Shown here one piece after another: positions 59,199 through 61,703 of a DNA stretch of 64,000 bases. The position numbers and the translations under genes were made by a program. The notes beneath the pieces are model-generated. The model was not told the DNA's origin and made no database searches. It saw nothing but the letters and a program-made list of their open reading frames with translations. The stretch is from contig NZ_KB890739.1 in the NCBI RefSeq assembly GCF_000373245.1, forward strand, positions 597,099-661,098. The letters run 5' to 3'. This DNA is from Echinicola pacifica DSM 19836 (lineage in GTDB: Bacteria; Bacteroidota; Bacteroidia; Cytophagales; Cyclobacteriaceae). Position 1 is the stretch's first letter, and every line of letters starts with the position of its first letter.

Positions 59199-59326
59199 GT
59201 CAAAAAACTACATTTTTTTTCGGTATTATAATAATTGGATTTTCAGCGATTTTTCGGGCTTTAAAGCCATTTGCCAAGGGGGAGATTTAGAAGGAGAAAT
59301 AATTCCCTACAAAATCTATAGGGAAA

Positions 59327-59357
59327 TTAGTTTTTGAAAAAATATATTGTACCTTTG
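59327..59357 (+). promoter_or_regulatory. promoter of the SAM-riboswitch transcript
   Basis: TTAG (59327-59330), 19 bp, then TACCTTTG (59350-59357). The -7 element is a perfect TAnnTTTG, and the -33 element has one mismatch at the canonical 19-bp spacing. Transcript start is expected near 59363, about 30 nt before the riboswitch. Confidence 0.65.
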
Positions 59358-59393
59358 AAGAAGTTATTAGTGAGCGGCGCAAAAGCAATTCAC

Positions 59394-59499
59394 TGATTTA
59401 TACCGAATAGGGGAGAGAACAGGCTCATAGATCCTATAGCAACCTATCCAAAGAAAAGGTGCTAAATCCTGCCTAAATCATTTAAGGAACTATAAATTA
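59394..59499 (+). promoter_or_regulatory. SAM-I (S-box) riboswitch
   Basis: P1 is TGATTTATA (59394-59402) with TATAAATTA (59491-59499), 9 bp with one G-T. P2 starts ATAGG (59407-59411) and closes with CCTAT (59433-59437) around GAGAGAACAGGCTC. P3 pairs ACCT with AGGT around AGCAACCTATCC and AAAGGTGCTAAATCC, the near-invariant S-box core. P4 is CCTAAATCATTTAAGG, then GGAAC leads into P1. All four helices of the three-dimensional core are therefore present. It binds S-adenosylmethionine. The P1 helix ends 8 nt before a 21-codon ORF. Confidence 0.9.
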
Positions 59500-59507
59500 A
59501 AAATGCC

Positions 59508-59573
59508 ATGAAGATGTTTAAAGCCTTTCGAATGCAAGTTTTTGCCACTAATGTTCGCCGCTGCTGTTGTTGA
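59508..59573 (+). CDS. leader peptide ending in three cysteines
   Basis: 21 codons from ATG 59508, starting MKMFKAFRMQVF and ending NVRRCCC before TGA. The last three sense codons are TGC TGT TGT. The ORF begins 8 nt after the riboswitch P1 helix and ends 52 nt before the next gene. GCTGT inside the Cys codons (59563-59567) can pair with ACAGC (59581-59585), followed by CTTTT, a weak terminator-like element that a ribosome on the Cys codons would cover. I infer a cysteine-sensing leader peptide whose translation is gated by SAM. Confidence 0.7.
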   Translation: MKMFKAFRMQVFATNVRRCCC

Positions 59574-59625
59574 AATTGACACAGCCTTTTAAACAAAAAC
59601 TAATAATTATTAAAATCTAAGAATC

Positions 59626-60114
59626 ATGACAGCTATCGCTTCAAATTATAAAGTATCACAAAACGAAACCATCTTCAGCTTCCAATCCGTAATCAGAAAT
59701 AATAATAAGGAAGTCAATGAGCTAAATGTAAGAGAGTATTTGGCTTCTAGATCCGATGTGGAATTGGAAGGTCAGGGCACTTTTTCATTTGGTAATTATG
59801 CAGGTGTGAACAAGGAGTTTAATGCGGTGTATTTTAACCTTAAAGGAAATCTGTCGGAGCATTATGCTTTCTTCAGAGGCTTGGTTCTGGCAGGACAGCC
59901 CAATGAATTGTTTTTGGAAAGTGTCCACGAAACTAAAAGCTTCACTCTGAAATTTTATAATAAAAATGAGGCAGTCGCAAAAAAATACCTCGAAAAGTTA
60001 TTCAAAATCGTAGAAGATGAACTGAGATTCAAACAAGTACTAAGAAAAGTCCTTGTGAATCAAGAAAGACATAAGCTGGAAGAAAAGCTGCTTTTCAATG
60101 AGCTATCTAATTAA
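59626..60114 (+). CDS. hypothetical protein under SAM riboswitch control
   Basis: 162 aa, not recognised. No signal peptide, TM helix or Cys cluster. The N-terminal two thirds look beta-rich (ETIFSFQSVIRNNNKEV, VELEGQGTFSFGNYAGV, FNAVYFNLKGNL) and the C-terminal third is a charged helix (about 112-162). It is the only protein-coding gene of substantial size between a SAM-I riboswitch plus Cys leader peptide and a strong terminator, so its regulation implies a role in methionine, cysteine or SAM metabolism. Next to arginine decarboxylase, a polyamine link is also conceivable. Confidence 0.8.
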   Translation: MTAIASNYKVSQNETIFSFQSVIRNNNKEVNELNVREYLASRSDVELEGQGTFSFGNYAGVNKEFNAVYFNLKGNLSEHYAFFRGLVLAGQPNELFLESVHETKSFTLKFYNKNEAVAKKYLEKLFKIVEDELRFKQVLRKVLVNQERHKLEEKLLFNELSN

Positions 60115-60149
60115 ATACAATGATAAACCACTAATAATGACCATAGTAA

Positions 60150-60188
60150 AACTCCTTTCTCATCTGCAGAAAGGAGTTTTTGTTTTTT
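60150..60188 (+). terminator. intrinsic terminator of the SAM-regulated gene
   Basis: AACTCCTTTCT (60150-60160) and AGAAAGGAGTT (60168-60178) form an 11-bp perfect stem with a 7-nt loop, followed by a long T-rich tract. It isolates the riboswitch unit from arginine decarboxylase. Confidence 0.9.
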
Positions 60189-60311: not shown

Positions 60312-61703
60312 ATGAACAAATACATTGATTTAATTCAGCAAACCTTTGATTTCCCCACGAGAGAATTCAAAGTGGAAGATGAAAAGCTTTTTTTTAATGG
60401 CGTAGATCTCATGGATATCATTGAGACGTATGGAACTCCGCTAAAACTAACTTACCTTCCTAAAATCAGTGAGAGCATACAAAATGCGAAAACTTACTTT
60501 AATAATGCGATGGAAGCCCATGATTACCATGGTAAGTACACCTATTGTTATTGTACCAAATCATCCCATTTCAAGTTCGTTCTGGATGAGGCACTGAAAA
60601 ACGACATCCATATCGAAACCAGCTCGACCTTTGACATTCCACTCGTGAGAAGCTTGTACGAACAAGGCAAAATCACCAAGGATACGCACATCGTCTGCAA
60701 CGGTTTCAAAAGGGATCTGTACAAGCAGTATATCACCGAGCTCCTCAATGATGGATTCAAAAACTGTATTCCTGTTTTGGACAACCTCACTGAAATTGAT
60801 TATTATCTGGAGCATGTGAAGGTGCCTTTTCAGGTCGGCATACGTATCGCCGCCGATGAAGAGCCTAAGTTTGGCTTCTACACTTCCCGTCTGGGCGTGA
60901 GATATAAGGATATAATCGACCTGTATGAGACCAAAATAAAGGATAATCCAAATGTGAGCCTGAAAATGCTCCATTTCTTTATCAATTCGGGCATTCGTGA
61001 TACTGCCTATTACTGGTCTGAGCTTACGCGATTTATACAGAAATATGTGGACCTCAAAGCCATCTGCCCCGAATTAGACACTATGGATATTGGTGGTGGC
61101 TGGCCCATCAAGACCAATGTATTCTTTGATTATGATTACCAATATATGGCGGATCAAATCATCAAGAATATCAAGTGGATGTGCGCCAAGAATAATACGC
61201 AGGAGCCCAATATCTTCACGGAATTTGGAAGCTATACTGTTGGAGAAAGTGGAGCGGTTCTCTATTCTATCTTGGAAGAAAAACTCCAGAATGACAAAGA
61301 GCTTTGGTATATGATCGATGGGTCCTTCATCACTCAATTGCCAGATAGCTGGGGACTGAATCAAAAGTATATTATGCTGGCGGTAAATAACTGGAAGGAA
61401 GAATATCATAATATCAACCTAGGTGGCCTGACCTGCGATAGTATGGATTACTATAATTCGGAGGCTCACCAATATAATATTTACCTCCCAAAGAAAGAGG
61501 ACAAAAAGACACCTCAGTACATTGGGTTCTTCCATACGGGGGCCTATCAGGAGTCTCTAGGTGGATATGGAGGGATTCAGCATTGCCTGATTCCTGCACC
61601 CAAGCACGTCCTGATCGATAGAGATACAGATGGGTCTGTCACTCATAGGCTGTTTGCAGAGGAACAAAATAGTGCGAGTATGCTAAAAACCTTGGGCTAT
61701 TAA
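60312..61703 (+). CDS. speA: PLP-dependent arginine decarboxylase
   Basis: 463 aa, fold-type III (alanine-racemase-like) PLP barrel plus C-terminal beta domain. The PLP lysine is K83 in YCYCTKSSHFK. The phosphate-binding stretch is TMDIGGGWPI near 259 and the active-site Cys/Asp block is GLTCDSMDYYN near 378. The length matches the short Bacteroidetes arginine decarboxylase and is well below the 630-660 aa of E. coli SpeA. It makes agmatine for polyamine synthesis. Carboxynorspermidine or diaminopimelate decarboxylase are weaker alternatives. Confidence 0.85.
   Translation: MNKYIDLIQQTFDFPTREFKVEDEKLFFNGVDLMDIIETYGTPLKLTYLPKISESIQNAKTYFNNAMEAHDYHGKYTYCYCTKSSHFKFVLDEALKNDIHIETSSTFDIPLVRSLYEQGKITKDTHIVCNGFKRDLYKQYITELLNDGFKNCIPVLDNLTEIDYYLEHVKVPFQVGIRIAADEEPKFGFYTSRLGVRYKDIIDLYETKIKDNPNVSLKMLHFFINSGIRDTAYYWSELTRFIQKYVDLKAICPELDTMDIGGGWPIKTNVFFDYDYQYMADQIIKNIKWMCAKNNTQEPNIFTEFGSYTVGESGAVLYSILEEKLQNDKELWYMIDGSFITQLPDSWGLNQKYIMLAVNNWKEEYHNINLGGLTCDSMDYYNSEAHQYNIYLPKKEDKKTPQYIGFFHTGAYQESLGGYGGIQHCLIPAPKHVLIDRDTDGSVTHRLFAEEQNSASMLKTLGY

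Follow-up and report, generated by a model that had tools for sequence, protein, structure and literature searches.

A stretch of 64,000 nt of Echinicola pacifica DNA (the window; positions are numbered from its first nucleotide) carries a SAM-I riboswitch that is followed by a short open reading frame (ORF) ending in cysteine codons, and only then by the gene for a 162-residue protein. The question raised by this locus is whether the riboswitch and the ORF are two sensors that act on one gene and, if so, how their signals are combined. The original prediction, made from the sequence of the window, proposed AND-type control, in which the gene is expressed only if SAM is scarce and Cys-tRNA limits. 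The features on which our analysis turns are collected in Table 1.

Table 1. Features of the riboswitch-leader locus in the window
Feature	Position	Strand	Basis or remark
17-bp palindrome CCTACAAAATCTATAGG, candidate operator	59306..59322		upstream of the promoter
Candidate -7 box TACCTTTG	59350..59357	+	seen in the sequence and in genus alignments
5' strand of possible long-range helix (AGTTATTAGT)	59362..59371	+	hypothesis
SAM-I riboswitch aptamer (RF00162)	59395..59498	+	cmscan, 68.6 bits, E 6.5e-14
Leader ORF MKMFKAFRMQVFATNVRRCCC plus stop codon	59508..59573	+	ORF list; frame and Cys end conserved in the genus
Hairpin with the Cys codons as 5' arm and RNA just past the stop as 3' arm	59560..59585	+	two registers predicted
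Three consecutive Cys codons (TGC TGT TGT) adjoining the stop	59562..59570	+	sequence
Leader-gene spacer, AU-rich, 52 nt	59574..59625	+	C minus G fraction 0.096
3' strand of possible long-range helix (ACTAATAATT)	59599..59608	+	ends 17 nt before the start codon; hypothesis
Gene for the 162-aa protein, the controlled gene	59626..60114	+	orthologs in 11/11 genus genomes
Intrinsic terminator after the gene	60148..60188	+	hairpin -15.6 kcal/mol, z -4.35, T run

The aptamer match spans the entire SAM-I model (positions 1 to 108), scores well above the gathering score of 44.4 bits, and is the sole Rfam match above its gathering score in the whole 64-kb window. A complete SAM-I aptamer had been claimed, and the covariance-model search bears this out; SAM binding and switching by this aptamer are predicted. 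Upstream, TACCTTTG fits TANNTTTG, which we take to be the Bacteroidota -7 box, so that the proposed promoter with a perfect -7 box holds with respect to that box. The E. pacifica genome contains four SAM-I riboswitches, located before metH, metX, a metZ/metB-like gene, and the gene for the 162-aa protein, as named by motifs in the translations. The metX riboswitch is also followed by a leader, which ends in MCFCMC.

The 21-codon ORF with three terminal Cys codons and the 52-nt spacer that separates it from the gene are present as originally described, the 3' end of the ORF reading CGC CGC TGC TGT TGT TGA. The close spacing of aptamer and leader was also recognized correctly, but the distance from the end of the aptamer match to the leader ATG measures 9 nt rather than 8 nt. 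A decoy ORF of two codons (ATG CCA TGA) begins at 59503, ahead of the leader ATG.

Comparison with related leaders had been proposed beforehand as the trial of this idea: the Cys codons should be conserved while the other residues drift. The order aptamer-leader-gene was found in all 11 genus genomes searched, and RF00162 matched above its gathering score at all 12 loci tested, i.e., the 11 genus loci and one locus from a second genus (L042, genome G050). An in-frame leader is present at 11/11 genus loci and ends in two or three Cys codons at 10 of them; the leader of L065 has one Arg after its terminal Cys codons, a single Cys codon is left at the end of the L070 leader, and in L042 a Cys-Cys pair lies in mid-leader. 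Among the 10 distinct genus leaders, Cys occupies 26/40 of the last four codon positions and 1/160 elsewhere, and the other two frames have no Cys in the same terminal stretch. From a shared CGAATGC to the stop codon, alignment gaps are multiples of three, and the start codons vary among genus members. TGT and TGC replace each other among the Cys codons, which argues for selection on the encoded residue, or on its tRNA, and not on the nucleotides as such. These 10 leaders thus show what is expected of an attenuator, a conserved run of regulatory codons in a drifting remainder, and the trial came out in favor of the original prediction; leader translation and ribosome stalling at the Cys codons would follow if the run is read as such.

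We then consider whether the arrangement extends beyond this gene. The first set comprised 113 SAM-I riboswitches, the best 111 of a score-ranked list plus two lower-scoring ones from E. pacifica, with downstream genes classed by short motifs. For metY and metH, the same rule was applied, accepting any ATG within the first 40 nt after the aptamer. By this rule, a leader ORF was present at 35/36 metY loci and 1/47 metH loci, with a Cys-rich end at 25/36 and 0/47, respectively. When only the first ATG was accepted, a stricter rule, two or more Cys were found in the leaders of 24/36 metY loci (P = 2.7e-12 versus metH). The 11 remaining metY loci of the 36 lacked a Cys-rich leader end. Cys leaders also precede other genes, namely, metX (1/5), metZ/metB-like genes (1/8), and ferredoxin genes (2/2), and at one further locus with a Cys leader the downstream gene lies beyond the contig end. 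Upstream of the E. pacifica matches to cysK-like genes and to the gene for cystathionine beta-synthase (four loci, two of which are the same gene), no Cys leader was detected by the rule used. At L072 and L074, the leader that follows the SAM-I riboswitch and precedes the ferredoxin gene ends in ...CCYRVMCCCC.

The second set consisted of 80 metY loci from other records, with members from Mucilaginibacter, Pedobacter, Sphingobacterium, Pontibacter, Hymenobacter, Chryseolinea, and metagenome bins. RF00162 was found upstream of metY in 73 of these loci, and 69/73 had a leader ORF, 61 with at least two Cys. A Cys-rich end, here at least two Cys in the last 12 codons, was present at 58/73 riboswitch loci, compared to 10/1460 shuffled gaps judged by the same rule, and at 51/64 once the nine loci common to the first set were removed; 15/73 lacked it. 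Cys codons numbered 376, 135, and 88 of 2786 codons in the three frames of the second-set leaders. The last 12 codons of these leaders are 39.5% Cys and 9.8% Met, versus 2.6% Cys and 1.6% Met in the rest of the leader. The possibility that the window ORF is a chance ORF behind an ordinary riboswitch is refuted by the excess over shuffled gaps together with the conservation within the genus; we found nothing to support it and give it a negligible probability. That the riboswitch, the leader frame, and the Cys end are conserved, and that the arrangement recurs before metY, indicates more than chance. As judged from these alignments and searches, the window locus is one member of a pattern widespread in Bacteroidota before sulfur-amino-acid genes.

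Seven of the 80 metY loci had no RF00162 match upstream, and two of these (L257 and L265) have less than 140 nt of upstream sequence. Among the other five, a Cys-ending upstream ORF was seen in four, by a loose rule to which no control was attached. L274 and L283 are metY loci that combine the lack of an RF00162 match with a Cys-rich upstream ORF, suggesting that such leaders may also occur on their own. Leader ends also vary in composition. The metY leaders examined from the genus (L028, L087, L092, and L208) carry one Cys codon and a number of Met codons close to their 3' ends, and two metY leaders behind SAM-I riboswitches (L126 and L140) have Phe/Tyr-rich ends with no Cys run. Such Met- or Phe/Tyr-rich leaders suggest that the amino acid being monitored may change over time, and even members of a single genus may differ in this respect, as the CCC end in the window and the Met-rich ends before metY would imply.

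If the Cys codons work as an attenuator, they are expected to take part in RNA structure. In the window, the hairpin that includes them has a predicted energy of -7.4 kcal/mol, a modest excess (z = -2.05) matched in stability by 7/200 shuffles. Across the 11 genus loci, pairing of the Cys tail with RNA past the stop averaged -10.74 kcal/mol, compared to -8.70 when partners were permuted (0/500 as low) and -7.75 when they were shuffled (0/300). For 57 metY leaders, the corresponding values were -14.39, -13.27 (0/300), and -13.20 (1/200), and a control segment located farther upstream, available for 56 leaders, displayed no pairing excess (180/200 shuffles as good). The regulatory codons are thus part of an RNA structure in both collections, as the permutations indicate. 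This pairing also bears on the possibility that the Cys-rich peptide itself is functional, for example in binding metal or heme or in redox chemistry, and that its codons sense nothing. Some leaders do have very long Cys runs, with up to nine Cys in a row in L259, as a functional peptide might; on the other hand, leader sequence, length, and Cys number all drift, the Cys residues are concentrated at the end, base pairing links their codons to the RNA that follows, and the ORF is found before metY and not before metH. We therefore consider a functional peptide highly improbable. Together, these results make the presence of two sensors well supported by sequence comparison.

How the two sensors could act on the gene depends on where the RNA or its translation stops. 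A classical attenuator of the trp/his type, which ends in an intrinsic terminator, is not supported: a hairpin followed by a T run was found between aptamer and gene at 1/40 leader-type loci in the first set and 2/69 in the second, and runs of six T are absent from the window spacer. In the first set, such signals were seen at 12/25 other riboswitches, a group that includes, via a decoy ATG, the window itself and the metY loci L118 and L128, and at 0/47 metH riboswitches; the latter value indicates that absence of a terminator is not special to leader-type loci. The leader-gene spacers have an unusual composition. For spacers of at least 40 nt (32 in the first set and 66 in the second, six of them in both), the median C minus G fraction was 0.099, compared to 0.010 in 159 gene-upstream control regions (P = 2.6e-22); the controls were drawn from the window and 16 neighborhoods of one family, and many spacers come from other families. 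A C-rich, G-poor composition is that expected of Rho sites. Because terminators are rare and the spacers are C rich and G poor, the default stop in the wider family is probably Rho dependent. The spacer in the window, short and AU rich, makes a poor Rho site, and at this locus control of translation initiation is equally possible.

We suggest the following model, which we consider somewhat more probable than its alternatives taken together: the SAM-I riboswitch gates a ribosome-based Cys sensor, and the gene is on when SAM and charged Cys-tRNA are both low. With SAM bound, P1 would be stable; since it ends 9 nt before the leader AUG, it would lie within the footprint of an initiating ribosome and leave the leader untranslated. 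When SAM is low, the leader would be translated, and the position of the ribosome at the three Cys codons before the stop would report the supply of charged Cys-tRNA. Without a ribosome, or after normal termination, the Cys codons would pair with RNA past the stop, and the hairpin would stay open solely while a ribosome is stalled on these codons. RNA polymerase or ribosomes would proceed into the gene in the open state but not in the closed or ribosome-free one, so that the output would be the AND of two shortages.

The arrangement of aptamer and leader is consistent with the first step. In the second set, the leader ATG lies 7 to 10 nt after the aptamer match in 58/69 leaders, which places P1 inside the footprint of the initiating ribosome. 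An effect of SAM on translation of the leader had been part of the original prediction; it is this spacing that agrees with it, and SAM may control leader translation. The near-constant distance also bears on a quite different arrangement, in which the two switches are independent: the aptamer would act on the gene through a long-range helix, and the leader would be a separate Cys attenuator. The two strands of such a helix are complementary over 10 bp in the window and over 8 to 11 bp in 11/11 genus members, 98.9% of the alignment cells are paired, and the helix forms when the complete leader of the window is folded to minimum energy. Covariation in the helix was, however, not above that of shuffles (139/500), an equally long match arises in shuffled spacers at a frequency of 0.06 (window) or 0.42 (second genus), and the fact that P1 and the leader are almost always the same distance apart suggests that the aptamer acts on the leader. 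We regard independent switches as quite unlikely. A competing local hairpin at the 5' end had 100% of its cells paired and also did not exceed shuffles (180/500). At 36 leader-type loci, pairing between the 5' untranslated region and the spacer gave -11.3 for a leader's own partner and -10.1 for permuted partners (standard deviation, 0.37), in a region that included promoters.

The second step, the response to Cys, could have the opposite sign. In that case the same two sensors would be present, but translation of the leader would protect the transcript, stalling at the Cys codons would uncouple the ribosome and RNA polymerase, and the gene would be active at low SAM as long as the Cys supply suffices, so that sulfide is kept for cysteine first. 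MetY competes with cysteine synthase for sulfide, which would provide a rationale, and six CysK-like proteins were matched in the E. pacifica genome, none of them reaching the family cutoff (the best with 319.6 of 350.95 bits). Simple uncoupling would not, however, require the Cys run to adjoin the stop codon and to pair with downstream RNA above controls, as it does. We hold this alternative to be unlikely but far from negligible. The AND reading of the preferred model is favored because high SAM, which would leave no ribosome on the leader, and plentiful Cys, which would release it, lead to the same closed state. It also has a possible metabolic basis, since the E. pacifica genome encodes a cystathionine beta-synthase scoring above its cutoff and extra homocysteine can therefore serve the cysteine supply. 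A metabolic reason thus exists for either sign, through cystathionine beta-synthase or through competition with CysK-like enzymes, and sequence does not fix the direction of the Cys response. The AND sign of the logic, the direction of that response, and the step at which expression is stopped are inferred.

A third layer of control is conceivable at the promoter. The palindrome CCTACAAAATCTATAGG is a candidate operator, and 12/12 riboswitch-bearing ortholog loci have, at the matching place, a palindrome whose outer arms agree with it at 11/12 arm positions or more. In the E. pacifica genome, the copy in the window is the only exact match to the pattern. As a genome-wide regulon, CCTACAAAATCTATAGG did not hold up: with up to two mismatches, 31 matches were found versus 28 in the control, showing no regulon. 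Weaker copies occur upstream of the E. pacifica metX riboswitch and of two metY riboswitches of the genus. A similar palindrome (e.g., CCTATAAAATCTATAGG) lies between leader and metY in L106, L133, and L139 and is perhaps an internal operator.

We turn to the controlled gene. Orthologs of the 162-aa protein were found in 35/148 genomes of the family Cyclobacteriaceae, with E. pacifica and the other genus members counted. The protein had been described as unplaceable, in agreement with our finding of no Pfam match over the cutoff, no NCBIfam match, and no sequence relative in an alignment-based search of PDB. A hit to PF21788 (E 0.0081, 17 of 24.8 bits) was taken as chance. The predicted terminator behind the gene is also confirmed, its hairpin being matched in stability by 0/200 shuffles and followed by a T run on the 3' side. 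Outside the genus, we fetched 26 ortholog loci: L042, 20 that were tested with Rfam, and 5 that were scanned by motif. None of the 20 has a riboswitch within 1.5 kb, and the other five have no aptamer-core motif within 330 nt, as judged by the motif scan rather than by Rfam. The result for the 20 loci indicates that the device was acquired recently by this gene.

The neighborhood of the gene offers indirect clues to its role. In motif scans of 37 ortholog loci, with one example of each confirmed by Pfam, genes for an Rrf2-type regulator, a TauE/SafE permease, and an arginine-decarboxylase-like protein lay within 1.5 kb at 10, 6, and 22 loci, respectively. The first two lend indirect agreement to the sulfur-metabolism role put forward in the original prediction, for which the evidence is weak. 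Three genomes of one other genus (L165, L166, and L179) encode a homolog some 8 kb past a metY-metX pair that has a SAM-I riboswitch and the same orientation. In the window, a gene for a pyridoxal-dependent, arginine-decarboxylase-like protein (60312 to 61703) is located directly 3' of the gene for the 162-aa protein.

Each part of this leader has known counterparts. The window aptamer is a full-length, above-threshold member of the SAM-I (S-box) family, RF00162, but differs from the usual SAM-I arrangement in that, the two-codon decoy aside, the first ORF behind it is not the gene but a leader ending in Cys, with no terminator seen between aptamer and gene. In mycobacteria, polycysteine short ORFs that are leaderless are reported to act as cysteine-responsive attenuators of downstream genes (Canestrari et al. 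2020, as described in passages of PMC13236596 and PMC9031893). They share with the window ORF a run of contiguous Cys codons; the window ORF, however, begins about 150 nt past the candidate -7 box and behind a SAM-I aptamer, and those passages mention no riboswitch. The candidate Cys-codon attenuator uORFC-8-2 of cysS in Rhodobacterales resembles the window leader in that two tandem Cys codons of a short ORF lie inside an RNA stem, but unlike it ends in an intrinsic terminator, with no riboswitch mentioned in the relevant passages (PMC8632094). For the B12 riboswitches of Mycobacterium tuberculosis, the corresponding passages of PMC11260477 describe interplay between a riboswitch and a translated upstream ORF (uORF), state that the effect of riboswitch-associated uORFs had previously not been addressed, and, in contrast to the window, describe no run of Cys codons. 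SAM-I/T box logic gates, predicted to compute NOT A AND B, likewise pair a SAM sensor with a sensor of amino acid charging before the same class of genes; their second sensor is a T box RNA, whereas that of the window is a translated leader. Tandem riboswitches are defined by two known aptamers, T boxes included, and in the window RF00162 stands alone.

Leader peptides are not foreign to the phylum, as passages of two reports indicate: clues to leader-peptide attenuation were described before amino acid operons of Flavobacterium (PMC9723704), and short ORFs resembling leader peptides occur in long 5' untranslated regions of Bacteroides (PMC7366714). In the accessible portions of the open-license PMC literature, we found no description of a SAM-I riboswitch combined with a Cys leader, which may still be published elsewhere. 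The relevant passages of PMC2258182, PMC2211319, PMC6429828, and PMC9373788 contain no such case, and the term "leader peptide" does not occur in the main text of a review of tandem riboswitches (PMC9481103). Thus, SAM-I aptamers, Cys-codon attenuators, interplay of riboswitches and uORFs, and SAM-I/T box gates are known, and as far as these partial sources reach, what is new is the placement of the riboswitch in series with a Cys leader.

Control by riboswitches and control by leader-peptide attenuation are commonly regarded as distinct mechanisms; here they appear joined in a fixed order. The joined device occurs in Cytophagales, Sphingobacteriales, and other Bacteroidota before genes that bring sulfur into homocysteine, and its wide spread, with metY, metX, metZ/metB-like, and ferredoxin members, goes beyond what the original prediction expected. 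In this genus, the device marks the 162-aa protein behind it as a candidate part of sulfur metabolism. We lean, by a narrow measure, toward the view that these leaders represent a widespread type of RNA-based regulation in Bacteroidota: instead of acting on its gene directly, the riboswitch would determine whether the ribosome is admitted to an amino-acid-sensing leader, the metabolite sensor and the tRNA-charging sensor in series forming a natural AND gate. Bacteroidota largely lack Shine-Dalgarno sequences, and wiring in series, if true, would explain how SAM-I riboswitches act without terminators in such a phylum; it would also constitute a natural two-input gate that is directly testable by reporters.
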